Positions 29,276-50,822 of a stretch of DNA of 64,000 nucleotides are shown here, piece by piece. The notes beneath the pieces were generated by a model. That model searched no databases. It was given only the letters and a program-made list of their open reading frames with translations, and was not told the DNA's origin. The position numbers were made by a program, and so were the translations under genes. This stretch comes from Salipiger bermudensis. GTDB lineage: Bacteria; Pseudomonadota; Alphaproteobacteria; Rhodobacterales; Rhodobacteraceae. The stretch covers positions 1-64,000 of the forward strand of contig NZ_JAIUZY010000012.1 in NCBI RefSeq assembly GCF_020171625.1. The letters are read 5' to 3'. Numbering within the stretch: position 1 is the stretch's first letter; each line of letters begins with the position of its first letter.

Positions 29276-29278
29276 GCC

Positions 29279-31009: not shown

Positions 31010-31053
31010 GCGTCCGAACCGGGCTGGAGGGCCCGACATCAGGGAGGAAGACC

Positions 31054-32250: not shown

Positions 32251-32259
32251 CGCCACCGG

Positions 32260-32304
32260 GCCGGGCCGCGCGCGTTTCGCGTCGCGGCCCGGCATGACCT
32301 TTTT
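32260..32304 (+). terminator. Intra-operon hairpin with T-run after binding-protein gene
   Basis: GCCGGGCCGCG (32260-32270) pairs perfectly with CGCGGCCCGGC (32283-32293) around a 12-nt loop; TTTTT follows at 32300-32304. It looks like a leaky terminator or mRNA stabiliser between the binding-protein and permease genes, since the downstream genes have no other obvious promoter. Confidence 0.65.
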
Positions 32305-32321
32305 CCGGAGACGCGCGAGAC

Positions 32322-35005: not shown

Positions 35006-35702
35006 GGTCAAGAATGTCGATGCGGGCTACGGCTCGACGGTGATCCTGCAGGACATCTCGCTGCATGTCGAGCCGGGCGAGGTGGTCACCATCGTGGGCG
35101 CCAACGGCGCCGGCAAGACCACGCTTCTGCGCACCATCTCGGGGCTGGTGAAGCCGCGCACCGGCGCGATCACCTTCGAGGGCAAGGACATCACCAAGCT
35201 CGAGGCGCATGACACCGTGGATCGGGGCATCACCCTGATCCCCGAGGGCCGGCAGCTTTTTCCGGACATGACGGTGCGCGACAACCTGTTGATGGGGGCC
35301 TATTGCCGCCACGCACGCGATTATCAGGACGACACGCTGCACGAGGTGCTCGAACTGTTCCCGCGACTGCGCGAGCGGCTTGACCAGCACGCCTCGTCGC
35401 TCTCGGGCGGCGAGCAGCAGATGGTGGCGATCGCGCGTGGAATGATGGCGCGGCCCAAGATCCTGATGTTCGACGAGCCCTCGCTGGGGCTCGCGCCGAT
35501 CATCGTGTCGCAGGTCTTCGAGGTCATCGCGCAGGTGGCCGCCACCGGCACCACGGTGCTGATCGTGGAGCAGAATGTGTTCCACACGCTCAAGGCTGCG
35601 GATCGCGGCTACGTGCTCGAGAACGGGCGCATGGTGCTGACGGACGACGCCGATGCGCTGCTGCAGAACGACCACGTTCGACAGGCCTATCTGGGAATAT
35701 GA
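34998..35702 (+). CDS. Liv-type ABC importer ATPase, LivF type
   Basis: A 234-aa ATPase with Walker A GANGAGKTTLLR (about 35-46), signature LSGGEQQMVAIARGMMARPK, Walker B ILMFDEPSLGLAP and a switch His replaced in the usual LivF manner (LIVEQNVF). It provides the second motor domain beside the fused LivG half. It overlaps the fusion gene by eight bases, and its own stop overlaps the SDR start. Confidence 0.92.
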   Translation: MLEVKNVDAGYGSTVILQDISLHVEPGEVVTIVGANGAGKTTLLRTISGLVKPRTGAITFEGKDITKLEAHDTVDRGITLIPEGRQLFPDMTVRDNLLMGAYCRHARDYQDDTLHEVLELFPRLRERLDQHASSLSGGEQQMVAIARGMMARPKILMFDEPSLGLAPIIVSQVFEVIAQVAATGTTVLIVEQNVFHTLKAADRGYVLENGRMVLTDDADALLQNDHVRQAYLGI

Positions 35703-36502
35703 CGATGACACACCGCGAGACGACCCCCGCGCATCACGAGACGCGGGACAGCCATGCCGGACGAAGGGTACTGGTCACAGGCGCGGCCAAGGGCATCGGG
35801 CTGGCCATGGCCGAGGCCTTTGCCCGGCGCGGCGCCACCGTGGGGGTGCTCGACATCGACGCCACCGAAGTCGCGGCGGCAGTCGCGGGCCTGCCCGGCA
35901 CCGGCATCGCGATGACCGGAGACGTCAGCGATTACGCCAGCCTGTCGCGGGCCATCGCGCAGGCCGAGGCAGAGATCGGCGGCGCCTTCGACACACTGAT
36001 CAACAATGCCGGGATTTCGCCCAAGCACGCGGGCGTGGCCCACAAGGTCTGGGAGATGGACCCGGAGGAATGGCGCCGGGTGGTCGATGTGAACCTCACC
36101 GGCTCGTTCAACTGCATCCGTGCGCTGACGCCTGCGATGGTCGAGGCCGGGCGGGGGTGGATCGTCAACACCTCCTCGGTGGCGGGCAAGACCTACTTTC
36201 CCATCGTCGCCTGCCACTACGCCGCGACCAAGTCTGCGATCATCGGCTTCACCAAGCACCTCGCGGGCGAGCTCGGCCCGCACGGCATCCGGGTGAACGC
36301 GCTGGCACCGGGGCGGATCGCCACGCCGATGGTGGCGGGAGTGGCGCCCGAGCTGAACGAGGCCGAGGTGCGCCGCACGCCGCTCGGCCGGCTGGGCGAG
36401 CCCGCCGAGGTGGCCGACACGGCGCTCTGGCTGACCTCCCCGGAATCGAGCTTTGTCACCGGCCAGACGATCGACGTCGCCGGCGGCCTCTCCATGACCT
36501 GA
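35699..36502 (+). CDS. Short-chain dehydrogenase/reductase
   Basis: A 267-aa classical SDR. The cofactor motif is VTGAAKGIGLAMAEAFARRG (TGxxxGIG, about 25-44), with NNAG near 102, catalytic Ser in NTSSVAGKTYF and Tyr-Lys in CHYAATKSAII. The acidic residue in VGVLDIDATE favours NAD(H). It interconverts an alcohol and ketone in the pathway fed by the importer just upstream. Its ATG overlaps the livF stop. Confidence 0.9.
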   Translation: MTMTHRETTPAHHETRDSHAGRRVLVTGAAKGIGLAMAEAFARRGATVGVLDIDATEVAAAVAGLPGTGIAMTGDVSDYASLSRAIAQAEAEIGGAFDTLINNAGISPKHAGVAHKVWEMDPEEWRRVVDVNLTGSFNCIRALTPAMVEAGRGWIVNTSSVAGKTYFPIVACHYAATKSAIIGFTKHLAGELGPHGIRVNALAPGRIATPMVAGVAPELNEAEVRRTPLGRLGEPAEVADTALWLTSPESSFVTGQTIDVAGGLSMT

Positions 36503-36512
36503 AAGGACCGGC

Positions 36513-36764
36513 ATGAGCTTCATGAATTTCATCGGCGGCGCGCAGACCGGCCACGCGCGCGAGGAGAACACCGGGATCGGCCTGCCCGCGGGAACCTGCA
36601 CGCAGGCCCCGCGGTTCCGCGCCGATGCCGGGGCGGGTCGGGTGAGAGTATTTCTCCCGGCCGCGGGCGTCGATGACCACGAGCCGGTCGCAGGCCGCAG
36701 AGGCCCGGGCGACGCGGCGCGCGCGTTCCACACCACGATCAAGACGGCCTGCACGCTGCCATGA
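36513..36764 (+). CDS. Small ORF, possible remnant of an aldehyde dehydrogenase start
   Basis: An 83-codon frame with a fair ribosome-binding site (AAAGGA) ten bases after the SDR stop; its stop overlaps the aroE-like ATG. The first 25 or so residues, MSFMNFIGGAQTGHAREENT, resemble the N-terminus of aldehyde dehydrogenases. The rest (Arg, Ala and Gly-rich) has no recognisable fold, and no other ALDH segment follows in any frame. It may be a deletion scar that keeps the operon translationally coupled, or a real small protein. It is not recognised as a known family. Confidence 0.35.
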   Translation: MSFMNFIGGAQTGHAREENTGIGLPAGTCTQAPRFRADAGAGRVRVFLPAAGVDDHEPVAGRRGPGDAARAFHTTIKTACTLP

Positions 36765-37606
36765 CCCAGATCACCGGTCATACCCGCCTTTACGGGATCC
36801 TCGCCGATCCGATTGCCCATGTGAAAACCCCGCAGGTCATGGCCGAGGTTTTTGCCCGCCACGGGGTCGACGGCGTCCTCGTGCCGATGCACGTGAGCCC
36901 CGAGCAACTGCCGCAGGCGCTCGACGGGCTGCGGGCGATGCGCAACTTCGGCGGGTTCATCGCCACGGTGCCGCACAAGCCCGCAATGCTGGATCTGTGC
37001 GACGCCGTCGAGGGAGATGCCGCCCGCATCGGCGCGGTGAACTGCGTGCGCCGTGACGAGGACGGGCGCATGATCGGGGCGATGCTCGACGGCATCGGTT
37101 TTGTCGAGGGGCTGCGTCAGGCCGGGATCGATCCGGGCGGCGCGCGGGTCCTGCTCGCCGGGGCAGGGGGCGCGGCCTCGGCCATCGCCTTTGCTCTGGC
37201 GGAGGCTGGGGCCGCGGCGCTGACGATCCTCAACCGCACCGCCTCCAAGGCCGACGATCTCGCGCAGAGGGTCTCGGCGGCCTATCCGGGCTGCCGCGCC
37301 GAGGGGTGCAGCAGTATCGCCGATCCGGGCGGCTATGACATCGTCGCCAACGCCACCTCTCTGGGGCTGCGGGCGGGAGATCCGCTGCCGCTCTCCCCGG
37401 AGGGGTTGCACGCGGGCCAGATCGTCGCCGAGGCGATCATGGAGCCAGAGGTGACGCCGCTCCTCGCCGAGGCCGCCGCGCGGGGCGCGCGCTGCCATCC
37501 GGGCCTGCCGATGCTGCGCTGCCAGATCGAACTGATGGCCCGGCACATGGGCGCCATCCCGGGCGAGGCGCTGAACGCCGCCGCGGCGACCGGGGCGGCG
37601 CGATGA
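36761..37606 (+). CDS. Divergent shikimate dehydrogenase-like enzyme (AroE/YdiB family)
   Basis: A 281-aa AroE-fold enzyme. The catalytic Lys is in ATVPHKPAM (Lys73), Asn in GAVNCV (Asn94) and Asp in MLDGIGF (Asp110), so the Lys-Asp dyad is kept. The NADP loop is VLLAGAGGAASAIAFALAEAG (about 128-148), followed by NRTASKADDLA, which suits NADP. The two Ser residues that bind the carboxylate of shikimate in E. coli AroE are replaced by Val21 and Thr23 (AHVKTP). With its catabolic neighbours this points to a related cyclic hydroxy compound rather than shikimate biosynthesis. Its stop overlaps the GMC oxidase start. Confidence 0.82.
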   Translation: MTQITGHTRLYGILADPIAHVKTPQVMAEVFARHGVDGVLVPMHVSPEQLPQALDGLRAMRNFGGFIATVPHKPAMLDLCDAVEGDAARIGAVNCVRRDEDGRMIGAMLDGIGFVEGLRQAGIDPGGARVLLAGAGGAASAIAFALAEAGAAALTILNRTASKADDLAQRVSAAYPGCRAEGCSSIADPGGYDIVANATSLGLRAGDPLPLSPEGLHAGQIVAEAIMEPEVTPLLAEAAARGARCHPGLPMLRCQIELMARHMGAIPGEALNAAAATGAAR

Positions 37607-39204
37607 GCGAGGCGTTCGATTACATCATCGTCGGCGGCGGCACCGCCGGCTGCGTGCTGGCAAACCGGCTCTCGGAGGATCCGCGCAACCGCGTGCTGTT
37701 GATTGAGGCCGGGCCGCGTCCGCTCAGCCCGTGGATCCCGATCCCGGCCGGCTTTTACAAGCTGCTCACCAACCCCAAGTTCAACTGGCGGTTCCAGTCG
37801 ACCCCCGAGCCTGCCACCGGCAATCGCGAGATCGCCATTCCTCGCGGCAAGGGGCTTGGCGGCTCGACGCTGATCAACGGCATGATCTACGTCCGCGGCC
37901 AGCCGCAGGATTACGACGGCTGGGCCCAGTCGGGCTGCACCGGCTGGGGCTGGGATGCGGTCGAGCCGGTGTTCCGCCGGCTCGAGCGCTATGCCGGCCC
38001 CGATACCGACGGCGCCCGTGGCCGCGAGGGCCGGCTCGATCTCTGCGAGGTGCAGGAGCGCCCGGCCATCGGCGAGGCCTTCCTGTCCGCCGCCGAGGCG
38101 TCGGGTCATCCGCGCAACCCCGATTACAATGGCTGCCGTCAGGACGGGGTCGGCTGGTATCAGGTGAACCAGAAGAACGGCCGCCGCGCGAGCGCCTATG
38201 CCGCCTATCTCGCGCCCGTGCGCACCCGCCCGAACCTCGAGATCCGCACCGGGCTGCGGGTGACGAAGATCGAGATCACGGAGCGTCGCGCCAGCGGTGT
38301 CCGCGTGCAGGGCGCTGATGGCGAGCGTGTCCTGACCGCCCGTCGCGAGGTGATCCTGAGCGCCGGCGCGGTGCAGAGCCCGCATCTGCTCGAGCTGTCG
38401 GGCATCGGCGACCCGGAGCGGCTGTCGCGCCTCGGAATCGAGACCCGGGTGGCGGCGCCGCAGGTCGGCGAGAACTACTCGGACCATTTCTGCACCCGCC
38501 TGAACTGGCGGGTGCGCCGCCCCGAAACGCTCAACCAGCTCAGCCGCGGCCCGCAGCTCGCCCGCGAAGTGCTGCGCTACCTGCTGTTCCGGCGCGGCAT
38601 CCTGACCTACGGCACTGGCCTTGCGCACGGCTTCATCCGCACCCGCGAGGGGCTTGCCGGGCCGGATGTGCAGTTCTTCTTCATGCACGCAAGTTATGCC
38701 AACGCCGCCGAGCGCAAGCTCGAGCGCGCGCCCGGCATGACGCTCGGGGTCACCCAGCTGCGGCCGGAAAGCCGGGGATCGATTCACGCAGGCTCTCCGC
38801 GCATCGAGGACCAGCCCGAGATCCGCCCGAACTTCCTCGCCACCGCAGAGGACCGGCGGGTGATGATCGACGGCATGATCGAGGGGCGCCGGATCATCGA
38901 GGCCGCGCCGATGGACGACTGGCGCGATCACGAGATGTCACCGGGGCCGGGGTGCAGCACCCGTGAGGACTGGCTGGCCTTTGCACGGCAGAACGGCCAG
39001 ACGATCTACCACGCGGCGGGCACCTGCCGGATGGGAAGCGATGAGGGCGCGGTGGTCGATCCGCAGATGCGGCTGCGCGGGGTCGAGGGGCTGCGGGTGA
39101 TCGACGCTTCGGTGATGCCGACGCAGGTCTCGGGCAATGCCCAGGCGGCGGTCTTCATGCTGGCCGAGCGCGGCGCGGATTTCATCCTCAGTGCGGCACA
39201 GTAA
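37603..39204 (+). CDS. GMC family FAD oxidoreductase (choline dehydrogenase-like)
   Basis: A 533-aa glucose-methanol-choline oxidoreductase. The FAD motif is YIIVGGGTAGCVLANRLSED (about 6-25). GMC signature 1 is around RGKGLGGSTLINGMIYVRGQ, and signature 2 is SAGAVQSPHLLELSGIG. The catalytic His is in IYHAAGTCRMG and the partner Asn in VSGNAQAAVFMLAERGAD. No signal peptide. It would oxidise a primary or secondary alcohol and pass electrons to the respiratory chain or oxygen. It ends the operon that begins at 27222. Confidence 0.9.
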   Translation: MSEAFDYIIVGGGTAGCVLANRLSEDPRNRVLLIEAGPRPLSPWIPIPAGFYKLLTNPKFNWRFQSTPEPATGNREIAIPRGKGLGGSTLINGMIYVRGQPQDYDGWAQSGCTGWGWDAVEPVFRRLERYAGPDTDGARGREGRLDLCEVQERPAIGEAFLSAAEASGHPRNPDYNGCRQDGVGWYQVNQKNGRRASAYAAYLAPVRTRPNLEIRTGLRVTKIEITERRASGVRVQGADGERVLTARREVILSAGAVQSPHLLELSGIGDPERLSRLGIETRVAAPQVGENYSDHFCTRLNWRVRRPETLNQLSRGPQLAREVLRYLLFRRGILTYGTGLAHGFIRTREGLAGPDVQFFFMHASYANAAERKLERAPGMTLGVTQLRPESRGSIHAGSPRIEDQPEIRPNFLATAEDRRVMIDGMIEGRRIIEAAPMDDWRDHEMSPGPGCSTREDWLAFARQNGQTIYHAAGTCRMGSDEGAVVDPQMRLRGVEGLRVIDASVMPTQVSGNAQAAVFMLAERGADFILSAAQ

Positions 39205-39431: not shown

Positions 39432-39920
39432 TCAGGCGCCGAGATTACCCAGCATCTTATGCATAACGGCAAGGAAGGTCTCGTAATCCTGCGGCGGGAT
39501 GTCGGCCAGCATGCGGGCCTCGCACTCAAGCGCGATGGCCAGGATCTCGGCATGGACCTCTTGCCCCTCATCGGTCAGCCACCAGCTGCGCCGGCGCAGA
39601 TCGCTGCCGGCGGCGGCGTAGCTGGCGAGCCCGCGCGCTTCGAGCAGCTTAAGCGATCGGCTGGCCGCCGCCTTGTCGAGCCGGATCACCTCGCAGATGC
39701 GGTTGGCGGTGATCTCGGGCTCGATGTTGAGCATCGCCATGACCCGCCAGTCGACGATGCCGAGGTCGAAATCGCGCCGGTAGATCGCAGAGGTCTGTCG
39801 CTGCCAGGCGCTGCTTACGGCGTTTAGGAGGAACGGCGCGTAGTGGTCGATGTCGAGGATTCGGATCCCGGCACGGTCTCGGGTCGGGCTCAAGAGGCGG
39901 TCCATCGGTTTGTCGGTCAC
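39432..39920 (-). CDS. MarR family transcriptional regulator
   Basis: A 162-aa winged-helix regulator. The DNA-binding part is LGIVDWRVMAMLNIEPEITA with recognition helix LDKAAASRSLKLLEARGLAS (about 50-95), and the wing contains GSDLRRRSWWLT. It is the last gene of the minus-strand importer/P450 operon, 22 nt after the ferredoxin reductase. MarR proteins often sense aromatic acids. Two MarR-like palindromes (47361-47376 and 47398-47413) lie upstream of the first gene of this operon, so it probably represses its own operon until the aromatic substrate arrives. Confidence 0.9.
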   Translation of the reverse strand: MTDKPMDRLLSPTRDRAGIRILDIDHYAPFLLNAVSSAWQRQTSAIYRRDFDLGIVDWRVMAMLNIEPEITANRICEVIRLDKAAASRSLKLLEARGLASYAAAGSDLRRRSWWLTDEGQEVHAEILAIALECEARMLADIPPQDYETFLAVMHKMLGNLGA

Positions 39921-39942
39921 GGCGCGGCAGCTCCAGGTTCGG

Positions 39943-41121
39943 TCATGCGGCTGTCAGGTCATAATTCCTTTGCAGCAGGCTGTCACGGGTCGGCACCGGG
40001 GCGGCGGCCAGCAAACGCCGTGCCTTCATGTGGATCTTGGCGTTATTGATGGTTTCGACGGCAGTCAGGCGCCCGTCGCGGAAGCGCAGCACCGCGCCAT
40101 CCTCGAGCGTGACGCTGTCATCCGTGGGATCGGCAAGCCCCGCGATCTGCAGCTTCAGATTGGACTGGTCCGACCAGAACCACGGCACCGCGGCGTAGGG
40201 CGTGGCCGTGCCGGTCCCGATGGTCCTGGCGATGGCGCGGGCGTGATCGGTGGCGGCCTGCACGCTCTCGAGCCGGATGCGGCGTCCGCTGCCGGGCTCG
40301 GGGAAGGCGGCGCAATCGCCAAGCGCGAAGATGCGCGGATCGCGCGTGCGCAGCTCTGCATCCACCGCGATGCCGTTGGCGATCTCGAGCCCGGCGGCCT
40401 CGGCCAGCTCGGTGTTGGGGCGCACTCCGGCGGCGAGCAGGACGAGATCACCAGCGATCTCGGTGCCGTCGGCGAGGGTCAGCCCGGTCTCGGTGACCTC
40501 GGTCACGCCATTGGCGAGATGCAGCGCGGTGCCGAGCGCCTCGTGCAACTCGCGGAAGCGGCGCGACATCTCCGGCGAGACCGCGCGCGCCATCAGCCGC
40601 GGTGCGGCCTCGGCGACGCTGACCTCGTGGCCCAGTCCCGCCGCCACCGCCGCGAACTCGAGCCCGATGAAGCCGCCGCCGATCACCGCAACCTTGCGCG
40701 GGCGATCGAGCGCGGCGCGCAGCGCGGCGGCATCGTCCAGCGTGCGAAGATCGAGCGCGCGGTCGATGCCCGGGATGGCCGGGCGCAGGTTGCGCGTGCC
40801 GGTGGCCAGGATCAGGTGATCGAAGGGCAGCGCCTCGGCGCCGACGCGGACCACCCCTGCCTCGCGGTCGATGGCGTCGACCCACTCCCCCGTCCGCAGG
40901 GTGATGTCCTTGGTGGCAAAGAAGCTCTCCGGCCGCAGCGCCAGCTTGTCGGCCTCGCCGGTCTTGAGGAAGGCCTTGGAGAGCGCCGGACGCTGGTAGG
41001 GCAGCCCCGGCTCGCCGCCGATCAGCGTGATCGGGCCGGAATGCCCCTCCTGCCGCAGCGACATGGCGGCCTGCAGCCCGCCCTGTCCCGCGCCGATGAT
41101 GACGACGCGCCCCGCGCTCAC
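39943..41121 (-). CDS. Ferredoxin reductase for the P450 (putidaredoxin reductase type)
   Basis: A 392-aa FAD/NADH oxidoreductase. The FAD motif is VVIIGAGQGGLQAAMSLRQE (about 6-25), followed by PYQRPALSKAFL, diagnostic of P450 ferredoxin reductases. The NADH motif is VAVIGGGFIGLEFAAVAAGL. The C-terminal VPWFWSDQSNLKLQIAGL is also characteristic. It moves electrons from NADH to the [2Fe-2S] ferredoxin encoded just before it. The start is GTG 41121, overlapping the ferredoxin stop in a GTGTGA arrangement; no better ATG fits the family start. Confidence 0.9.
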   Translation of the reverse strand: MSAGRVVIIGAGQGGLQAAMSLRQEGHSGPITLIGGEPGLPYQRPALSKAFLKTGEADKLALRPESFFATKDITLRTGEWVDAIDREAGVVRVGAEALPFDHLILATGTRNLRPAIPGIDRALDLRTLDDAAALRAALDRPRKVAVIGGGFIGLEFAAVAAGLGHEVSVAEAAPRLMARAVSPEMSRRFRELHEALGTALHLANGVTEVTETGLTLADGTEIAGDLVLLAAGVRPNTELAEAAGLEIANGIAVDAELRTRDPRIFALGDCAAFPEPGSGRRIRLESVQAATDHARAIARTIGTGTATPYAAVPWFWSDQSNLKLQIAGLADPTDDSVTLEDGAVLRFRDGRLTAVETINNAKIHMKARRLLAAAPVPTRDSLLQRNYDLTAA

Positions 41122-41441
41122 ACCTGCTCCTCCGGCAGGTGCACGACCAGCCCGTCGAGCGCCTCGCTCAGGGTGATCTGGCAAGACAGACGCGAGCGCC
41201 CGGTGACCTCGCAGACCGCGCTTTCGAGCATATCTTCCTCGCCATCCATGCGCGCGCCCGTGGCCGCCTGCCAGTCGTCATCGACATAGCAATGGCAGGT
41301 GGCGCACATCATCGAGCCGCCGCACTCGCCGACGATGCCGTCGAGCCCGTTGGCGATGGCGAGGCTCATGACGCTGTCGCCGGGATCGCCTTCGAGCTCG
41401 GTGCGGGTGCCGTCATGGGCGACGTAGGTTACCTTGACCAT
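41118..41441 (-). CDS. [2Fe-2S] ferredoxin (putidaredoxin/palustrisredoxin type)
   Basis: A 107-aa adrenodoxin-type ferredoxin. The ligands are C-x5-C-x2-C in GECGGSMMCATC and a fourth Cys in RLSCQITL. HCYVDDDW follows the third Cys as in putidaredoxin-like proteins. It carries electrons from the reductase to the P450. The gene lies 11 nt downstream of the P450, and its stop overlaps the reductase start. Pux of Rhodopseudomonas palustris, the partner of CYP199A2, is the closest type known to me. Confidence 0.92.
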   Translation of the reverse strand: MVKVTYVAHDGTRTELEGDPGDSVMSLAIANGLDGIVGECGGSMMCATCHCYVDDDWQAATGARMDGEEDMLESAVCEVTGRSRLSCQITLSEALDGLVVHLPEEQV

Positions 41442-41452
41442 GAGATGCCTCT

Positions 41453-42676
41453 TCAGTTCGGAATGAGTGTGATGGGCAGCCGGTCGAGCGCCCGGATCGC
41501 GTTGTTGGGACGCCAGACAGCGTCTCCGGTGGGTTCGATCCGATCGACCTTGCGGATCAGTGCGCCCAGCACCGCCTCGAGCTCGCCGCGGGCGATGTTC
41601 TGGCCGACGCAGCCGTGGATGCCAGCGCCGAAGGCCACATGGCCCACCGGCTTGCGGTCGACGCGGAAGACCTCCGGGTCGCCCCATTTCTCGGGGTCCA
41701 TGTTGGCCGCGCCCAGCACGCAGAGCACCTTGCTGCCCTCCTCGACCGGAAAGCCCGCGATCTCGGTGTCGCGCCCGGCGGTGCGGCCGAAGGTGTGTAC
41801 CGGCGAGGTGTAGCGCAGAACCTCCTCGAAGGCCGGGCGGATGAGCGTCGGGTCGGCTTTCAGGGCCTCCCACTGGCCGGGGTTCTGCGACAGGCACCAG
41901 AGCGCGTTGCCGATGCCGGTCACCGTTGTATCGACGCCCGCCGACAGAAAGGAGCGCACCAGCATCCCGGCCTCGGCCTCGGTCAGCGTGCCATCTTGGG
42001 CGGAGGCGTAGACCATCGCGCCGAGCCCGTCCCCGCTCAGCCGGTCGCGGGCGCAGGCGGCGTTGATCCAGGGCACGATCTCGCCGGCGTGGCGCATCGC
42101 CTCGCGGCGCAGCGCATTGTCGGGGCCGACGGCGTTGAACACCATGGCGCCGTAATCCACGAGGTGGCGCGGGTTGACGTCGGTCATGCCGACCGCCTTG
42201 GGGAAGACAGTGGTCGGGAAGGCCTCGGCAAAATCGGTGACCGCCTCGATCGTGCCCCTTTCGAGCAAGTCGTCGACGAGGCGGTCGGCGGTCTCGTGGA
42301 ACAGCTCGGCAAAGCCTTTCACCACCTTGGGCGAGAGCGCCCGCGACATCACCTTGCGGGTGCGGGTGTGATCGGGCTGGTCGACCTCGAGGATGATCGA
42401 GGGCGGGCGCCACGGGTCTTCGAGCTTGAAATCGTTCAGGCCCACGCCCCGCGAGGAGACGAAGTTTTCGTGGTCGGAGAATACCTTGCGGGTGATCTCG
42501 TAGCGCCCCACGGCGAGCACGCTGTAGCGCGGGATATAGGCCAGATCGCCCTGTGCGCGCAGTTCGGCATAATAGTCGAGCGGGTCGCGCAGGATCGCGG
42601 TGTGGTAGGGATCGACATCCCAGACCGCGACGCCGCCTGCGGGGATGATGGGCTTGTGGCCTTCGATGAGTGTCAT
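41453..42676 (-). CDS. Cytochrome P450, CYP199A-like (para-substituted benzoate oxidation)
   Basis: A 407-aa soluble bacterial P450. The heme Cys is Cys356 in FGAGIHGCVGQNIAR, the I-helix acid-alcohol pair is Asp249-Thr250 in FLSAGVDTT, and the ExxR motif is EEVLR. Residues known to hold the benzoate carboxylate in CYP199A4 (Arg92, Ser95, Arg243, Ser244) all match here with a shift of two: Arg90, Ser93, Arg241, Ser242. Pocket residues Phe180, Val293 and Phe296 match too. CYP199A4 Phe185 corresponds to Val183, which should open room for larger para groups. The likely reaction is O-demethylation or hydroxylation of para-substituted benzoates or cinnamates. The enzyme is cytosolic, with its redox partners adjacent. 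Confidence 0.88.
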   Translation of the reverse strand: MTLIEGHKPIIPAGGVAVWDVDPYHTAILRDPLDYYAELRAQGDLAYIPRYSVLAVGRYEITRKVFSDHENFVSSRGVGLNDFKLEDPWRPPSIILEVDQPDHTRTRKVMSRALSPKVVKGFAELFHETADRLVDDLLERGTIEAVTDFAEAFPTTVFPKAVGMTDVNPRHLVDYGAMVFNAVGPDNALRREAMRHAGEIVPWINAACARDRLSGDGLGAMVYASAQDGTLTEAEAGMLVRSFLSAGVDTTVTGIGNALWCLSQNPGQWEALKADPTLIRPAFEEVLRYTSPVHTFGRTAGRDTEIAGFPVEEGSKVLCVLGAANMDPEKWGDPEVFRVDRKPVGHVAFGAGIHGCVGQNIARGELEAVLGALIRKVDRIEPTGDAVWRPNNAIRALDRLPITLIPN

Positions 42677-42694
42677 GGCAGGTCCTTTCTCGGC

Positions 42695-43417
42695 TCAGTC
42701 CGCCAGCGCGACGCCGACATGGCGGTGCAGAAGCTCCGCATCCTGTCGCAGCGCCTCGGCGGGTCCTTCGTGCACGATGGTGCCGTTGGCCATAAGCAGG
42801 GCGCGGTTGGCGAAGGCCAGCGCGGCCTCGGCGTGTTGCTCGACCAGCACCACGGCGCGGCGGCCATCGCTGGCGAGTTGTTCGAACACCTCCATGAGCT
42901 GCTCGCAGATCACCGGGGCGAGCCCCTCGAGCGGCTCGTCGAGCAGGATCACGTCGGGCCGGGTCATCAGGGTGCGGGCGATGGAGAGCATCTGCTGCTC
43001 GCCGCCCGAGAGCTGGGTGCCGCCGTTGCGGCGGCGCTCCTTGAGGCGCGGGAAGAGGGTGTAGGCCTCGTCGAGCGTGGCGTCGCCCCGCAGGCATGAC
43101 AGCAGGTTTTCCTCGACCGTGAGCGAGGGGAAGATATCGCGGGTCTGCGGCACCAGCCCGAGCCCCAGCGCGTTGCGCTTGTAGGGGGCGAGCCGGTCGA
43201 TGGCGCGGCCCTTGTACTGGACGCTGCCGCCATGCATCCGGGTCAGGCCCATGATGGTGTTGAGGAGCGTCGTCTTGCCCGCCCCGTTGCGCCCGATCAC
43301 CGCCAGCCGCTCACCCGGCACGACGGTGAGATCGATGCCGCGCAGGACATGGGTCGGACCGTAGCCTGCGGTGACGTCTTTCAGTTTCAGCGTGGTGTCA
43401 GCCTGCGCCTCAGCCAT
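42695..43417 (-). CDS. Liv-type ABC importer ATPase, LivF type (aromatic acid operon)
   Basis: A 240-aa ATPase with Walker A GRNGAGKTTLLN, signature LSGGEQQMLSIARTLMTRPD and Walker B ILLDEPLEGLAP. The start ATG 43417 gives MAEAQADTTLKLKDVTAGYG and overlaps the livG-type gene by eight bases; a longer frame upstream is antisense noise. It powers import by the minus-strand transporter and lies 18 nt before the P450 gene, so transport and oxidation genes share a transcript. Confidence 0.9.
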   Translation of the reverse strand: MAEAQADTTLKLKDVTAGYGPTHVLRGIDLTVVPGERLAVIGRNGAGKTTLLNTIMGLTRMHGGSVQYKGRAIDRLAPYKRNALGLGLVPQTRDIFPSLTVEENLLSCLRGDATLDEAYTLFPRLKERRRNGGTQLSGGEQQMLSIARTLMTRPDVILLDEPLEGLAPVICEQLMEVFEQLASDGRRAVVLVEQHAEAALAFANRALLMANGTIVHEGPAEALRQDAELLHRHVGVALAD

Positions 43418-44156
43418 GCGCCCCTCCCAGGTAAAGCTCGCGCACCTGCGCGTTGGTGGCGATCTCTTGTGGCGTGCCCTCGGTGAGGATGCGCCCCTGC
43501 ACCAGCACCACGATCGAGGTCGCGACGCGGAACACGAGATCCATGTCATGCTCGATCACCAGCACCGCGAGATCGTGCGGCAGCCGCTCTATCGCTTCGA
43601 TGATCAGGTGGGTTTCGCTCGAGGGCACGCCGGCGGCGGGCTCGTCGAGGATCAGCACCCGCGGCTTCAGCGCCAGGCTCAGCGCCATCTCGACCAGACG
43701 CTGCTGACCATAGGCCAGATCGAGCACCGGGCGGTCGGCCAGCGGGCCGAGGTCGAACTGGTCGATCAGCGCCGCGACCTCGTCCTCGATGGCGCGGTTG
43801 CTGTCGGCACGGGCGAACATGCGCCGCCCCAGCCCCTCGCGCTCCAGCACCGGCAGGCGCAGGTTCTCGCGCACCGTGAGGCGCGGAAACAGCGTGGTGA
43901 TCTGGAAGGTCTTGGCGATGCCGCGCTTGACCCGCTGCGCCTCGTCGAGCCCGGCGATGTCCTCGCCATCGAAGCGGATGGCGCCGCCCGAGGGGCTGAG
44001 GATGCCGGTCACAAGGTTTGCAAAGGTGCTCTTGCCCGCCCCGTTGGGGCCGATCAGCGCCTTGCGCGCCCCGGGCTTCAGGTCGAAGTCGATGCTCTCC
44101 GACACCACCAGCCCGCCGAAATGCTTGCTGAGCCCGCGAACCTCAAGACCCTGCAT
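43410..44156 (-). CDS. Liv-type ABC importer ATPase, LivG type
   Basis: A 248-aa ATPase starting MQGLEVRGLSKHFGGLVVSE. Walker A is GPNGAGKSTFAN. The signature region is LAYGQQRLVEMALSLALKPR, and Walker B is ILDEPAAGVPSSE. It has the longer LivG insert around GLDEAQRVKRGIAKTFQITT. It overlaps the permease gene before it (14 bases) and the LivF gene after it. Confidence 0.92.
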   Translation of the reverse strand: MQGLEVRGLSKHFGGLVVSESIDFDLKPGARKALIGPNGAGKSTFANLVTGILSPSGGAIRFDGEDIAGLDEAQRVKRGIAKTFQITTLFPRLTVRENLRLPVLEREGLGRRMFARADSNRAIEDEVAALIDQFDLGPLADRPVLDLAYGQQRLVEMALSLALKPRVLILDEPAAGVPSSETHLIIEAIERLPHDLAVLVIEHDMDLVFRVATSIVVLVQGRILTEGTPQEIATNAQVRELYLGGAHG

Positions 44157-45099
44157 GACGACCTCCCTTGGCGAGACGTTTGAGGCTGGTGGGCAGCGCC
44201 GCGATGCCCGATGGCAGGAAGAACACCACCGCCAGCACCAGCGCGCCGATGACGAAGAGCCAGTTAAAAGGATCGTTGGCGGCGGCGGTGTGGTGCACCG
44301 CCATGAAGATCACCGTGCCCAGCACCGCGCCGTAGAGCCGCCCGGTGCCGCCGAGGATCAGCATGATCAGCGCCTCCGCCGAGAGCGTGAAGGAAAACGC
44401 CTCGAGGCTGACGAGTTGGGTGATCTGGGCGCTGAGCGCACCGGCGATGCCGGCGATGCCGCCGCCCAGCGTGTAGGCCGCGAGCCTGCGGCGATAGACC
44501 GAGACGCCGATCGCCTCCATGCGCGCGGGGCTTTCGTGGATGCCGCGCAGCGACAGCCCGAAGGGCGAGCGCCCGATGACGAAGAGCGCGGCAAAGACCA
44601 GCCCCGCGATAGTGAGCGCGTACCAGTAGCCGGTGATGCCGATGAAATCGAACTCCCATAGCCCGAGCACCTTGCCGGGGCGGATGCCGCGCATCCCGTC
44701 GGCGCCACCGGTGACCTCGCGCGCCTGGTTGGCGATCTCGGCGCAGATCTGCGCCACGGCGATGGTGAGCATGATCAACGTGAGGCCCTGCGTGCGCATC
44801 AGCACCGCGCCCGACAGCGCCGCCAGCGCCCCCCCTGCGAGCGCGCCGATCAGCAGCCCCGCGACCGGATCGGCCCAGACATGGATCGCGAAGAGCCCGG
44901 CGGCATAGGCGCCGGCGCCATACATCGCCGCCTGCCCCAGCGTCGCGATGCCCGCAAAGCCCAGCACCAGGTCGAGCGAGAGCACCAGCACGATCATGAT
45001 CAGGATGCGGGTCAGGAAGGCGAGGTTGTAGGGAAAGAGGAAGAAGGCCGCGACCGCTGCAATCAGCATGACGAGCGCGGGAATGAACGGACGGGTCAT
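44143..45099 (-). CDS. Liv-type ABC importer permease, LivM type
   Basis: A 318-aa membrane protein starting MTRPFIPALVMLIAAVAAFF. The family segment LVLGFAGIATLGQAAMYGAG is at about 45-64 and the docking-loop region is SLRGIHESPARMEAIGVSVY. ATG 45099 overlaps the LivH stop (ATGA), which fixes the start; an open frame upstream is not used. It forms the pore with LivH. The cargo is probably an aromatic carboxylate, given the P450 downstream (inference). Confidence 0.9.
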   Translation of the reverse strand: MTRPFIPALVMLIAAVAAFFLFPYNLAFLTRILIMIVLVLSLDLVLGFAGIATLGQAAMYGAGAYAAGLFAIHVWADPVAGLLIGALAGGALAALSGAVLMRTQGLTLIMLTIAVAQICAEIANQAREVTGGADGMRGIRPGKVLGLWEFDFIGITGYWYALTIAGLVFAALFVIGRSPFGLSLRGIHESPARMEAIGVSVYRRRLAAYTLGGGIAGIAGALSAQITQLVSLEAFSFTLSAEALIMLILGGTGRLYGAVLGTVIFMAVHHTAAANDPFNWLFVIGALVLAVVFFLPSGIAALPTSLKRLAKGGRHAGS

Positions 45100-45962
45100 C
45101 ACGAGGCCCTCCCCAAAAGGCCCTGCGGGCGCAGCGCCAGGAACAGGATCACCAGCGCAAAGGTGACGATGGTGGCGAAGTCGGGCAGCAGGTAGCGGCT
45201 CGCGGTCTCGACGAGCCCGATAGCCAGCGCCGCCGCAAAGGAACCGAGGATCGAGCCCAGCCCGCCAATGGCGACGACGATGAGAAACAGGACCATGTAG
45301 CGCAGCGGGTAATAGGCATCGATGGGCAGCAACTCCGCCCCGAGGATGCCGCCGAGCGCCGCGAGCCCCGCGCCGAGCGCGAAGGTCAGCGTGTAGATCG
45401 TCCCGGTGTCGATGCCGAGCGCCGAGGCGGTGTCGCGGTTGTCGACCGCGGCGCGCAGGCGGATGCCGAAGCGGGTGCGGTCGAGCAGCGCCCAGAGGCC
45501 GAGGATCACCGCGAGGCCCACCACGATCACCGTCACCCGGTGCGCCGTGAGCTGGCGGAAACCGAGGTCGATCGAGCGTTGCAGCGCCTCGGGCAGCGGG
45601 ATCGCGAGCAGTGAGGAGCCGAGCCAGAGGTTGACGGTTGCGATCATCAGGAAGGTCAGGCCGATCGTGGCCAGCACCTGCTGCAACTCGCCAAAGCCGT
45701 AGATCCGGCGGTAGACCAGCCGCTCGAGCGGGATGGCCAGCGCGACGGTGCCGGCGATGGCCAGTGCCGCGGCGGCGACGAAGGGTAGGCCCAGCTCGCG
45801 GCCCAGCCAATGCGCCAGCGCGCCGCCGATCAGGGCGAATCCGCCATGGGCAAGGTTGACGACCCGCATCAGTCCCATGGTCACCGACAGGCCGACGGCG
45901 ATCATGAAAAGGATCATGCCGTAGGCGATGCCGTCGACCGCGATGTTGAGAAGAAGGCTCAT
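45099..45962 (-). CDS. Liv-type ABC importer permease, LivH type
   Basis: A 287-aa membrane protein. The start is MSLLLNIAVDGIAYGMILFM, followed by MRVVNLAHGGFALIGGALAH, the LivH hallmark, and TRFGIRLRAAVDNRDTASAL as docking loop. It follows the binding-protein gene after a 55-bp gap that holds a perfect hairpin (45984-46011). Confidence 0.9.
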   Translation of the reverse strand: MSLLLNIAVDGIAYGMILFMIAVGLSVTMGLMRVVNLAHGGFALIGGALAHWLGRELGLPFVAAAALAIAGTVALAIPLERLVYRRIYGFGELQQVLATIGLTFLMIATVNLWLGSSLLAIPLPEALQRSIDLGFRQLTAHRVTVIVVGLAVILGLWALLDRTRFGIRLRAAVDNRDTASALGIDTGTIYTLTFALGAGLAALGGILGAELLPIDAYYPLRYMVLFLIVVAIGGLGSILGSFAAALAIGLVETASRYLLPDFATIVTFALVILFLALRPQGLLGRAS

Positions 45963-45983
45963 GATGTGTCTCGCGTTCAGGTG

Positions 45984-46011
45984 GGACGGGCCAGCGCTTG
46001 CCGGCCCGTCC
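45984..46011 (-). terminator. Intra-operon hairpin between binding-protein and livH genes
   Basis: GGACGGGCC (45984-45992) and GGCCCGTCC (46003-46011) form a perfect nine-bp stem with a ten-nt loop, directly after the stop of the binding-protein gene (minus strand). There is no T-run. Placement matches the hairpins at 8645 and 32260. Confidence 0.6.
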
Positions 46012-46017
46012 TGACGG

Positions 46018-47184
46018 TCACTTCGTCCAGCCGAGATCGCCGACGGTGGCGATCACGCCCTGCTCGACATTCTCCAGCAGTCCGGTCTCGGCATTGCGCG
46101 CGACCTCGCGGATATAGACGTTCTGGATCACCGTGCGGGTCTCGGGATCCATCTCGAGCGGGCCGCGCGGACTCTCCCACTCGAGACCAAGCGCCGCCTC
46201 GACCGCCTTCGGCCCGTCGGAGCCTGCCGCCTCGACCATCTCGTAGATCAGGTGCACGCCGTCATAGGCGCCGACCGAGGCCCAGTTGGCGATCGCATCG
46301 GGATGCAGCTCGCTCAGCGCGGTCAGAAAGGCGCGGTTGGCTTCGCTGTCATGGGCGGGGGAGTAGTGGTAGACGGTCTGCAGCCCCTCCGCCATCTCGC
46401 CCAGACCCTGCAAGTTGATCTCCTCGGTCTCGGCGGTGCCTAGGAAGGTGATCCCGGCCTCGCGCAGCCCGTTCTCGTTGTATGTCTTGGTGTAGGAGAA
46501 GGTTGGCGGCCCGCCGGGCAGGAAGGTGAAGACCGCATCCGGCGCCTCGTCCTTCACGCGCTGCAGGATCGGGGTGAAATCGGTCGTCGACAGCGGCATC
46601 CGAACGCTCTCGATGACCTCGCCGCCCTTCGCCTCGAAGGCCGCCTTGAAGGCGGTCTCGGCATCGATGCCGGGGCCGTAATCGGTCACCGTGGTGACGA
46701 CGGTGCGGATGCCCTGATCGTAGGCCCATTCCGCCGCCGGGGCGGAGACCTGCGGCAGCGTGTAGCTGGTGCGCAGGTAGAACGGGCTCTCCTTGTTGAT
46801 CGTCGAGGTGGCGGCATTGAAGATCACCGTGGGGGTCTCCGACTGGGTGATCACCGGGCCGACCGCCAGCGCGTTCGGGGTGAAGGTGAAGCCCGCGAGG
46901 TAATCGACCCGGTCGCGGATCAGCAGCTCCTGCGCCAGCGCCCGCGATTGGTCGGGGTTCACGCCGCCGACATCCTTGTAGATGAAGCTGATCTCGTGCT
47001 CGCCGGCGACGGTGCCGTGCTGCGACTGGAACGCCTCGATCGCCTGCTGGTACTGGATGCCGTACTGGGCGAAGGGGCCGGAGAACGGCGCGATGACGCC
47101 CACCTTGATCTCATCGGCGGCTGCGGCAGCCAAGCCGAGGCCGCAGACCGCCGAGACGGCGGTCAGGATGTGTCGGATAGTCAT
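46018..47184 (-). CDS. Liv-type ABC importer substrate-binding protein
   Basis: A 388-aa periplasmic binding protein with Sec signal peptide MTIRHILTAVSAVCGLGLAA (cleavage near AAA-DEIKVG). The family start is KVGVIAPFSGPFAQYGIQYQ, and FIYKDVGGVNPDQSRALAQE follows. Catabolic members of this family often bind aromatic acids. It is the first gene of the operon ending with P450, ferredoxin, reductase and MarR. ATG 47184 is chosen because it gives a proper signal peptide; a longer frame to 47310 lacks one. Confidence 0.88.
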   Translation of the reverse strand: MTIRHILTAVSAVCGLGLAAAAADEIKVGVIAPFSGPFAQYGIQYQQAIEAFQSQHGTVAGEHEISFIYKDVGGVNPDQSRALAQELLIRDRVDYLAGFTFTPNALAVGPVITQSETPTVIFNAATSTINKESPFYLRTSYTLPQVSAPAAEWAYDQGIRTVVTTVTDYGPGIDAETAFKAAFEAKGGEVIESVRMPLSTTDFTPILQRVKDEAPDAVFTFLPGGPPTFSYTKTYNENGLREAGITFLGTAETEEINLQGLGEMAEGLQTVYHYSPAHDSEANRAFLTALSELHPDAIANWASVGAYDGVHLIYEMVEAAGSDGPKAVEAALGLEWESPRGPLEMDPETRTVIQNVYIREVARNAETGLLENVEQGVIATVGDLGWTK

Positions 47185-47360
47185 GGTTTCCTCCCGGTTG
47201 AAGCGCCGCCTGCGGACGCGTATCGCCTCTCCTCCGAGGCGGATGCTGGTGCCGCGTGTCGCGGCTCTGGCCGAGCGCCAGCGCGCGGCGACAGCACGTG
47301 TCGGCGTCACCTTCGCGAATGGGTAAAGGTCCTCCTGACCGGCCCTCTCCTCAGCGCCAG

Positions 47361-47413
47361 AGTTGATTCATCAACTGCAGGCAGCCTGTCCGATTTGAGT
47401 TGATATGTCAACA
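47361..47413. promoter_or_regulatory. Paired MarR-type palindromic operators
   Basis: Two 16-bp palindromes share 12 of 16 positions: AGTTGATTCATCAACT (47361-47376, seven-bp arms, perfect) and AGTTGATATGTCAACA (47398-47413, GTTGA/TCAAC arms). Their centres are 37 bp apart. They lie upstream of the minus-strand importer/P450 operon, whose last gene is a MarR regulator; MarR proteins typically bind 16-20-bp palindromes of this kind. The distance to the first start codon is about 180 bp, so a long leader or a promoter close to the sites is implied. Confidence 0.65.
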
Positions 47414-48723: not shown

Positions 48724-49652
48724 ATGGGAGCGGTATACGCGCAACTGAGCGTCAAGGAACGTGTCCAGATCGAACGCTGGAAGCTGGCAAAGGTCCCCGT
48801 CCGGGAGATGGCGCGCGTGTTGCAGCGCTCGAAAGCCACCATCTATCGCGAGATCAAGCGGAACTGGTTCAGCGATGAGTGCCTGCCGGGCTATGACGGC
48901 TACTACGGCGCCGCCGCGCATCAGAAAGCCGCCAATCGGCGTGCTCGGCGGCGCAAGCTGTTGAGGTTTGAAGCCCTTCGGCTGGCTATTGTTGACCGGC
49001 TCAAGGGCGGGTGGTCACCAGAGCAGATCGCAGGCCGCCTTGGGTTCGAGGGCCAGGATGCGCGCATCAGTCACTCACTGCCCGGCAGGGTATCGCGGCA
49101 CGCGATATCCCGAGAGGAGGACAATCTACGCCTCGGTCTATGGGCCCGAGAGCCGGGCCGATGACCTCGCGCGGCATCTTCCCAGCCGCCGCAAACAGAG
49201 AAAGCCACGCCATGCGAGCAGGCCGCGTGGATGGATCTTTCCGCCAGGGCGGTCAATCCATCAGCGACCTGACTACGTTGAGTCGCGAGAAACCATTCGG
49301 AGAATGGGAGGGCGATCTGATGATCTTCGAGCGCGGCGCGGGCAAGATGAACGTCGACACACTGGCTGAACGCAAGACCCGCTTCGCCGTGCTGTTCCGC
49401 AACAACGACAGGAGCACGACCCACCTCATGCGCGGACTGATGGCGGTGATGGAGCCCCTGCCCCAACCTGCGCGACAGTCGATCACCTTCGACCGCGGCA
49501 TCGAGTTCCGCGACTGGCGCAAGCTTGAGGCCGGGATCGGAACCACCGCATGGTTCTGCGACCCGCAGGCGCCTTGGCAAGATGGATCGGTCGAGACCCC
49601 GAATGAACGCGCTCGCCATTGGCCACCCGGGATCATACCGTCAGGAGCGTAG
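48724..49652 (+). pseudogene. IS30 family transposase, frameshifted and C-terminally truncated
   Basis: The start MGAVYAQLSVKERVQIERWK and the helix-turn-helix VLQRSKATIYREIKRN are typical of IS30. The frame is then lost near 49075. A second frame carries TIYASVYGPESRADDLARHL and RPRGWIFPPGRSIHQRPDYV. A third carries the DDE core: GEWEGDLMIFERGAGKMNVD (first Asp), SITFDRGIEFRDW (second Asp) and APWQDGSVETPNERARHW (Glu). The last part of the protein, after the Glu motif, is missing. At least two frameshifts make it inactive. Terminal inverted repeats could not be recognised. Confidence 0.85.
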
Positions 49653-49682
49653 AAATGACACCAGCGCCAAGGTGAGACCATT

Positions 49683-49715
49683 TGAACTTTACAAGAGGTT
49701 CATATGGACTATATC
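49683..49715 (+). promoter_or_regulatory. Promoter and autoregulatory repeat of the toxin-antitoxin pair
   Basis: TTTACA (49688-49693) and TATATC (49710-49715) with a 16-bp spacer resemble sigma-70 hexamers. The inverted repeat TGAAC-N10-GTTCA (49683-49702) overlaps the -35 element, where an antitoxin could repress transcription. The ribosome-binding site GGAGGA at 49725-49730 precedes ATG 49735. Confidence 0.45.
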
Positions 49716-49734
49716 GAGGGTCATGGAGGATACC

Positions 49735-50124
49735 ATGTACGTTGCTGAGAAAATCCGGGAACCCGCACAGATCAACGCCGTCGCGTTGAAAGCCTATGCT
49801 CGCGTGGCGGATGCCTGGGGTCTCAGCGTCAAGGAGGCGGCTGGCCTTGCCGATATGTCCGAGAGCACGTGGAAGCGCGCCAAGAAGCCGGATTTCGCCG
49901 GAGAGCTTACCAAGGACCAAGTTCTGCGTCTCAGTGCGGTGATCGGCATCTATAAGTCCCTTGAACTCTACTTCTCGGAGCCTCTCGCGCGAAGCTGGTT
50001 CACCCGGCCAAACACCGGGCCGCTGTTTGGGGGCAGCCGCCCGGTCGACGCGGCCATTGACGGGGGCTTGCCTCAGATCCTCGCGGTTCGGACCTATCTT
50101 GATGCGTTGCGTGGTGGGGCGTGA
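49735..50124 (+). CDS. Xre/MbcA/ParS-type antitoxin
   Basis: A 129-aa antitoxin of the type that pairs with RES toxins. The N-terminal Xre-like helix-turn-helix region reads ALKAYARVADAWGLSVKEAA with SESTWKRAKKPDFAGELTKD. The C-terminal toxin-binding (DUF2384) part reads IGIYKSLELYFSEPLARSWF and ends PVDAAIDGGLPQILAVRTYL, the usual pattern of the MbcA/ParS family. The start is set by GGAGGA four bases before ATG 49735; an upstream in-frame ATG at 49723 has no site. Its stop overlaps the GTG start of the toxin (GTGA), the classic antitoxin-first coupled order. Confidence 0.88.
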   Translation: MYVAEKIREPAQINAVALKAYARVADAWGLSVKEAAGLADMSESTWKRAKKPDFAGELTKDQVLRLSAVIGIYKSLELYFSEPLARSWFTRPNTGPLFGGSRPVDAAIDGGLPQILAVRTYLDALRGGA

Positions 50125-50822
50125 AAAAGACCGAGATTTCCGATCGCGGTCTCGTTCGTCTCCTGCCCGCGACCTACCACAAGCCACCATCGCTGCGCGG
50201 ACTCGTCGATACCGATGACGAGATGGAGATCTTGGCAGAGATCGAGGGTCTGACCAGTGGACGTCTTCAGGCCGAGCGCGGGCGCAATCCGCACCTCGAC
50301 CCGCGCGAACTCGCGTGGCAACGCCGCAGCCGCGATATGCGCATCTACGGGGACAGTCACGTCAACGCCGCCTTCACCTATACCCGCGCGGGCGGAAACC
50401 GCTTCAACACCGAGGAGCGAGGTGCCTGGTACTGCGCATGGGAGGTGATGGTTTCCGTTAGCGAAGTGGCCTGGCACCGCACACGCGAACTCAGCTTTGT
50501 CGGCAGCTTCCATGACAGCGCCCGCTATGTGGAATTGCTGGCAGACTTCATCGGCGTGTTCGACGATCTCTCCGATGAAACAGGTCATACCGCGTTACAT
50601 CCGGATCCAGCCATCGGGTACCCCGAGGGCCAATGTCTGGCCCAGCAGCTGCGCCGGGGCGGTTCCAAGGGACTGATTTATCCTTCCGTCCGCGCTCCGG
50701 CGCCCGGCGGGAAATGCCTGGTGTGCTTCGAGCCGCACGCCATTCAGAACGTCCGGCCCGGCGCATCCTGGGATCTTGTTTGGGATGGAACAGAACATTA
50801 TTCGATCACGGCTGTCGCCTGA
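50121..50822 (+). CDS. RES domain toxin
   Basis: A 233-aa RES-domain protein. The invariant Arg is in GGNRFNTEERGAWYCA, the conserved Glu lies among the following EERGAWYCAWE residues, and the Ser is in SKGLIYPSVRAPG-like sequence (GLIYPSVR). These residues form the NAD-binding pocket; characterised RES toxins (MbcT, Res) degrade NAD+. It is longer than many RES toxins because of an N-terminal extension of about 75 residues. All key residues are present, so the pair is probably active. It sits beside dead mobile elements, a typical place for a stabilising toxin-antitoxin module. Confidence 0.88.
   Translation: MKKTEISDRGLVRLLPATYHKPPSLRGLVDTDDEMEILAEIEGLTSGRLQAERGRNPHLDPRELAWQRRSRDMRIYGDSHVNAAFTYTRAGGNRFNTEERGAWYCAWEVMVSVSEVAWHRTRELSFVGSFHDSARYVELLADFIGVFDDLSDETGHTALHPDPAIGYPEGQCLAQQLRRGGSKGLIYPSVRAPAPGGKCLVCFEPHAIQNVRPGASWDLVWDGTEHYSITAVA

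Follow-up and report, generated by a model that had tools for sequence, protein, structure and literature searches.

To our knowledge, the uptake of methoxylated acids has been little studied. O-demethylation is regarded as an essential and rate-determining step in emerging lignin-valorisation strategies; CYP199A cytochrome P450 enzymes (P450s) O-demethylate p-methoxybenzoates, and in PbdA of Rhodococcus jostii RHA1 the residues equivalent to those of CYP199A4 hold the carboxylate (PMC11530827). Six CYP199 subfamilies of alphaproteobacteria, A, B, J, K, L and M, have already been named (PMC8197338). For the binding protein RPA0985, 4-hydroxybenzoate was reported to raise thermal stability by 29.5 °C (PMC3223731), and the protein has been listed as a 4-OH-benzoate binder (PMC6079105). 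The present work concerns a nine-gene operon in a 64,000-nucleotide stretch of Salipiger bermudensis DNA (assembly GCF_020171625.1, contig NZ_JAIUZY010000012.1, positions 1 to 64,000; hereafter the window), which encodes a Liv-type importer, a CYP199-family P450, a ferredoxin, a reductase and a MarR-family regulator. Sequence comparison indicates that the operon of this marine bacterium probably serves the O-demethylation of an imported methoxylated aromatic acid, and the pairing of related importers with different demethylating enzymes suggests that the imported acids come from plants.

Gene content of the operon and lineage of its P450

The operon occupies 47184 to 39432 of the minus strand, and neighbouring genes overlap or are separated by no more than 55 bases. 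Pfam agrees with the role of all nine products.

46018–47184, minus strand: predicted periplasmic aromatic-acid binding protein, first gene of the operon (Peripla_BP_6, Pfam E 5e-62)
45099–45962, minus strand: LivH-type permease (BPD_transp_2, E 2e-31)
44143–45099, minus strand: LivM-type permease (BPD_transp_2, E 4e-31)
43410–44156, minus strand: LivG-type ATPase (ABC_tran and BCA_ABC_TP_C)
42695–43417, minus strand: LivF-type ATPase (ABC_tran; UrtE/LivF-like scores)
41453–42676, minus strand: CYP199-family P450, apparently outside subfamily A (p450 domain; R90, S93, R241, S242, F180, V183, which corresponds to F185 of CYP199A4, F296 and C356)
41118–41441, minus strand: putidaredoxin-type [2Fe-2S] ferredoxin, 107 amino acids, start ATG (Fer2; putidaredoxin E 3.5e-28)
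39943–41121, minus strand: ferredoxin reductase dependent on flavin adenine dinucleotide (FAD), 392 amino acids, start GTG (Pyr_redox_2 and Reductase_C; 3FG2 E 1e-87)
39432–39920, minus strand: MarR-family regulator, last gene of the operon (MarR_2)

A first-pass annotation, made by a model from the letters alone, had read these closely packed minus-strand genes as one operon that unites importer, P450, both redox partners and regulator, and the domain matches and the recurrence of the gene order in relatives bear this out. The gene set stands as proposed, but minor corrections were needed to the coordinates of the ferredoxin and the reductase and to the start of the binding protein, which is most likely the ATG at 47184; the proposed end point, 47413, takes in both operators described below. 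The Liv-type gene set is complete, with one Peripla_BP_6 protein, two BPD_transp_2 permeases and two ATPases. The NCBIfam equivalog names for urea and Liv transport were rejected for the importer, every score being below the cut-off, and the MarR protein also scores under every NCBIfam equivalog cut-off. The predicted protein folds are fixed by 47–50% identity to solved structures.

With a separate [2Fe-2S] ferredoxin and FAD reductase, the P450 belongs to a class I system. The closest match of the reductase in the Protein Data Bank (PDB) is 3FG2, while the putidaredoxin-like ferredoxin also matches 3HUI and 4LTU, so that the redox partners are of the kind expected for the P450. A CYP199A4-like locus (82% identity to CYP199A4) has the P450, a ferredoxin and a divergent MarR gene, with no comparable reductase within 20 kb; this is in line with the statement in the earlier annotation that the CYP199A2 reductase of Rhodopseudomonas palustris is encoded elsewhere.

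By convention, P450s with more than about 40% identity are placed in the same family and those with more than about 55% in the same subfamily. The window P450 shares 47.0% identity with CYP199A4 and 45.7% with PbdA (9G9Q), as against 56.8% between those two enzymes. This identity, together with the heme cysteine C356, the acid-alcohol pair D249–T250 and the carboxylate clamp R90/S93/R241/S242, places it in CYP199. In the tree it falls in an 81-row clade supported at 99 by the Shimodaira–Hasegawa-like approximate likelihood ratio test, with CYP199A4 and PbdA outside, and members of the clade are 43–50% identical to CYP199A4. Both identity and tree position are thus those of a protein outside CYP199A, and the P450 appears to represent a sister clade, a placement based on comparison with CYP199A members. 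The first-pass annotation had called the enzyme CYP199A-like and had itself named such a phylogeny as refuting its proposal; as a statement of membership the term has to be given up, but the carboxylate site is still intact. The four clamp residues align with R92, S95, R243 and S244 of CYP199A4, exactly the shift of two that had been noted, and are kept in 39/39 importer-linked P450s compared. F182, V295, F298, D251 and T252 (CYP199A4 numbering) are kept as well. At position 185, each of the 39 has V, L, M or I in place of the F that 6/6 CYP199A references retain; T292, H296 and P392 (same numbering) are further signature changes.

The importer clade, its demethylase partners and the likely substrate

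The best PDB relatives of the binding protein are 4F06 (E 9e-111, 50% identity) and 4EVS (E 2e-110, 49%), followed by 4EY3 (41%). We take 4EVS to be RPA0985, and 4F06 is presumably a close relative solved with 4-hydroxybenzoate. This kinship and the gene context suggest that the cargo of the importer is an aromatic acid. Related importers are found beside more than one kind of demethylase. In one genome (G451), a P450 with 68% identity to CYP199A4 follows importer orthologues of 57–65% identity. Plasmids of Rhizobium leguminosarum (pRLN3), Rhizobium sp. CB3090, Agrobacterium fabrum and Phyllobacterium carry the orthologous importer between genes for a GcvT-fold protein, methylenetetrahydrofolate reductase (MTHFR) and PurU, and there is no P450 in these cassettes, which carry a demethylase of LigM/DesA type instead (L228 5297–13450; also L229, L231 and L233). 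The bit scores of the GcvT-fold protein, 570 for DesA and 521 for LigM, fall short of both equivalog cut-offs, and its match to LigM structures has E 6e-130. It is therefore a relative of these enzymes, perhaps with a different substrate. The MTHFR call is that of the record annotation, Pfam and NCBIfam giving no match. A Mesorhizobium amorphae plasmid (L173) has importer, LigM/DesA-type gene and P450 together. Binding proteins linked to either demethylase chemistry form one group in the tree, beside and not inside 4F06/4EVS (support 82/75). Since one importer clade is paired with unrelated demethylases, its cargo is best explained as a methoxylated aromatic acid.

O-demethylation by a P450 yields formaldehyde, while hydroxylation does not. 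A gene for S-(hydroxymethyl)glutathione dehydrogenase (frmA type) stands immediately upstream of the operon, on the same strand, in Donghicola, Paracoccus aestuariivivens, two strains of Pseudooceanicola, Seohaeicola and an Alloyangia plasmid. The probability that at least 4 of 39 independent loci would show this linkage by chance is, as a rough estimate, 2e-10. The Salipiger genome encodes two FrmA proteins, as well as PobA (626 bits, cut-off 539) and PcaH (378 bits, cut-off 296), both on contig C5, so that 4-methoxybenzoate could reach ring cleavage. The claim that the unit is a complete pathway was too strong, since the genes for PobA and PcaH are located outside it.

In the proposed mechanism, the binding protein and LivHMGF would bring the methoxylated aromatic acid into the cell, and electrons from NAD(P)H would pass through the reductase and the ferredoxin to the P450. 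The P450 would clamp the carboxylate by R90/S93/R241/S242 and oxidise the para methoxy carbon to give formaldehyde and a phenolic acid. Glutathione-dependent formaldehyde dehydrogenases would then remove the formaldehyde, with PobA and protocatechuate 3,4-dioxygenase completing degradation. The leading candidate for the main natural substrate is 4-methoxybenzoate (p-anisate), though at somewhat less than an even chance, with close relatives such as veratrate or a methoxysalicylate as alternatives.

Several observations weigh against O-demethylation of such an acid by this operon. In the window, frmA is not adjacent to the operon. The para pocket differs from that of CYP199A4, because F185 is replaced throughout the importer-linked P450s, and the preferred substrate may differ too. 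The nearest characterised binding proteins bind 4-hydroxybenzoate, which is the expected product, and the clade that unites the demethylase-linked binding proteins is only moderately supported. The rhizobial cassettes contain ring-cleavage genes, for maleylacetate reductase and an intradiol dioxygenase, which suggest that the acid degraded in those bacteria is not p-anisate.

The altered position 185 would also suit an enzyme that hydroxylates the ring of cinnamates or of larger aromatic acids, in an operon that supplies p-coumarate-like acids; an engineered F185L form of CYP199A2 has been used to turn p-coumarate into caffeate (PMC7011507). Ring hydroxylation is nevertheless improbable, as the frmA linkage and the LigM/DesA-type partners imply removal of a methyl group, and the nearest solved binding proteins bind 4-hydroxybenzoate or benzoate, whereas the cinnamate binders of R. 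palustris form a separate group (PMC3223731). A slightly poorer prospect is that the importer takes up 4-hydroxybenzoate itself, as the 50% identity of its binding protein to 4F06/4EVS might indicate, and that the P450 acts on an unrelated internal compound, the two being co-located for co-regulation only. However, importer orthologues pair with three different demethylase types, 4F06/4EVS lie outside the demethylase-linked clade, and with PobA available from another locus no P450 is required for 4-hydroxybenzoate. Para-alkyl benzoates (p-ethylbenzoate, p-toluate), which the first-pass annotation had allowed beside para-methoxy acids, are very unlikely substrates for hydroxylation or desaturation by the unit, for although PbdA and CYP199A4 also convert p-ethylbenzoate (PMC11530827) and smaller residues at 185 alter the outcome on alkylbenzoates, this chemistry makes no formaldehyde and leaves the frmA, LigM/DesA-type, MTHFR and PurU partners unexplained, and RHA1 does not grow on p-ethylbenzoate even though its PbdAB converts it. 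O-demethylation of a para-methoxy acid, the other half of that proposal, remains the favoured reading.

Distribution and control of the operon

A P450 match at E <= 1e-60 is present in 28 of the 397 genomes of the bacterial family. Loci were compared among the 80 best of a species-level genome collection, with named relatives. At least four of the five importer genes stand directly upstream of the P450 in 36/80 loci, and all nine genes occur in the same order in 19/80, which makes the arrangement more than chance. Importer-P450 loci are seen in Salipiger, Alloyangia, Paracoccus, Mesobaculum, Flavimaricola, Poseidonocella, Maritimibacter, Hoeflea, Frigidibacter, Rhizobium, Pseudooceanicola, Mangrovicoccus, Pseudorhizobium and Xaviernesmea, among others; the window P450 is 94% identical to that of its nearest named relative, Salipiger bermudensis. 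Some Rhizobiaceae, such as Agrobacterium vitis, have P450, ferredoxin, reductase and MarR genes without the importer, and in Seohaeicola and Pacificibacter a tripartite ATP-independent periplasmic (TRAP) transporter adjoins the P450 in place of the ATP-binding cassette (ABC) importer. The operon is also present on complete plasmids of Alloyangia pacifica and Pseudosulfitobacter pseudonitzschiae, the latter mobilizable. Recurring across genera, on plasmids and with variant modules, the operon is a conserved, modular unit and not peculiar to the window. Its description as transferable fits these two plasmids but is less secure for the window copy: a RepC search of the genome gave matches only on contigs C3 and C11 and none on the window contig (C12).

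Two side observations concern related P450s. Members of the same clade (60–70% identity) occur without the importer in Chloroflexota metagenome-assembled genomes (L112, L117, L118) and in one of Thiothrix (L094), by transfer or mis-binning. On a Haematobacter massiliensis plasmid (L174 1303–17182), a CYP199A4-like P450 (71%) adjoins a second importer operon, which includes another P450 together with a ferredoxin and a reductase; the binding proteins there are closer to 4EY3.

Upstream of the first gene, the promoter and leader contain two operators and two hairpins.

47399–47412, no strand assigned: distal operator GTTGACATATCAAC (minus-strand reading), overlapping a -35-like TTGACA
47362–47375, no strand assigned: proximal operator GTTGATGAATCAAC, a perfect palindrome, 37 bp from the distal one
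47339–47360, minus strand: leader hairpin 1, whose loop contains GAGGAG; imperfect in the window, perfect in the compared S. bermudensis locus
47224–47241, minus strand: leader hairpin 2, with a CGCCTC/GAGGCG stem and a GGAGGA loop, 39 nt before the binding-protein start

Allowing up to 1 mismatch, the 4.74 Mb genome contains no sites of the operator pattern GTTGA-N4-TCAAC other than these two. Nearly all importer-type relatives of the main group retain the pair, as do several P450-first loci, with a spacing of 31–39 bp, and in Pseudooceanicola it stands before frmA. Palindromic operators at the promoter are putative MarR sites and would place the operon under MarR control. It seems likely that the operon's own MarR binds both; from these sites, which span the -35 and start region, it would repress the operon until it is itself bound by the acid or one of its derivatives.

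Leader hairpin 1 is not significant in the window copy alone (p = 0.45). Many relatives (L080, L085, L076, L078, L079, L089 and others) have a GGAG(G)-loop hairpin upstream of the binding-protein gene, 16–43 nt before its start and followed by a second ribosome-binding site. Across 14 leaders the stem shows strong covariation, with a score of 0.72, whereas slid pairings give no more than 0.17 and 0/500 shuffles reach the stem's score, and 7/7 stem pairs have changed on both sides; these leaders were preselected for having the hairpin, which inflates the percentage paired but does not alone explain the variety of pair types. A simple count over the 80 loci shows little excess of GGAG-loop hairpins (6.7 per 1000, against 4.0–5.9 for other loop words), and the case for the hairpin thus rests on position and covariation. 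No credible Rfam family matched the leader; the single weak match, to a hepatitis C stem-loop in the opposite orientation, was dismissed as fortuitous. Conjecturally, the hairpin could serve as a ribosome standby site or be bound by an anti-Shine-Dalgarno small RNA. An effect on translation, if it has one, would make it a new regulatory element for binding-protein genes in alphaproteobacteria.

The best matches of the hairpin model in the same genome (C12:70868, C4:231451, C4:20941, C3:619606 and C17:26711; L177, L178, L179, L183 and L191) precede other genes with signal-peptide-like starts, apparently for periplasmic binding proteins. Several show GGAG in the loop, in a small sample biased by the choice of some regions for their model matches. 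In four leaders (L070, L071, L065, L073), frmA lies between the operator and the binding-protein gene, and a GGAGG-loop hairpin can precede both genes. The 190-nt Salipiger leader may be the scar of a lost frmA.

There is a little less than an even chance that the importer clade is dedicated to methoxylated aromatic acids and has in evolution been joined interchangeably to demethylases that are not homologous (members of two CYP199 subfamilies, or a LigM/DesA-type cassette), controlled by MarR and equipped with a conserved leader hairpin that holds a Shine-Dalgarno motif in its loop.

Surroundings and comparison with known systems

Upstream of the operon, the window contains an IS30-like transposase split over two frames (48724–49652; HTH_38 and rve domains) and a pair of Xre/MbcA-type antitoxin and RES-domain toxin (49582–50822). 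On its other side lies a plus-strand cluster (27222–39204) that encodes two alcohol dehydrogenases, a thiamine pyrophosphate enzyme, a short-chain dehydrogenase/reductase, a shikimate-dehydrogenase-like protein, a glucose-methanol-choline oxidoreductase and a second Liv-type ATPase (34998–35702). The right end of this cluster (the short-chain dehydrogenase/reductase, the shikimate-dehydrogenase-like protein and the glucose-methanol-choline oxidoreductase) also adjoins the operon in the compared S. bermudensis locus.

No published account of the operon was found in the literature searched, and absence there is no proof. The compact combination of importer, P450, redox partners, regulator and a clean operator pair lends itself to direct testing as a cassette and as a biosensor, and importers of this clade could be used to recognise methoxy-aromatic catabolism among marine bacteria and rhizobia. 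Among described systems, CYP199A2/A4 of R. palustris (P450 with Pux/HaPux and PuR/HaPuR) resembles the Salipiger operon in P450 family, carboxylate clamp and class I chain, and a nearby MarR gene is common to the operon and a CYP199A4-like locus. The Salipiger P450, at 47% identity, differs in belonging to a separate clade and having V at position 185, and its operon in including the reductase and an ABC importer, with the MarR gene last and not divergent. PbdAB, the p-methoxybenzoate O-demethylase of RHA1, is alike in family and carboxylate residues, and its catabolic role (PMC11530827) would match; however, PbdB is a single cognate reductase with flavin and iron-sulfur centres, whereas the Salipiger ferredoxin and reductase are separate. 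RPA0985 (4EVS) and 4F06 are the closest solved relatives of the binding protein, at about 50% identity, but lie outside the demethylase-linked clade. Tetrahydrofolate-dependent O-demethylation by LigM/DesA does the same job by analogy and is served by the same importer clade on rhizobial plasmids; the enzyme, absent from the window operon, is unrelated and passes the methyl group to tetrahydrofolate instead of releasing formaldehyde.

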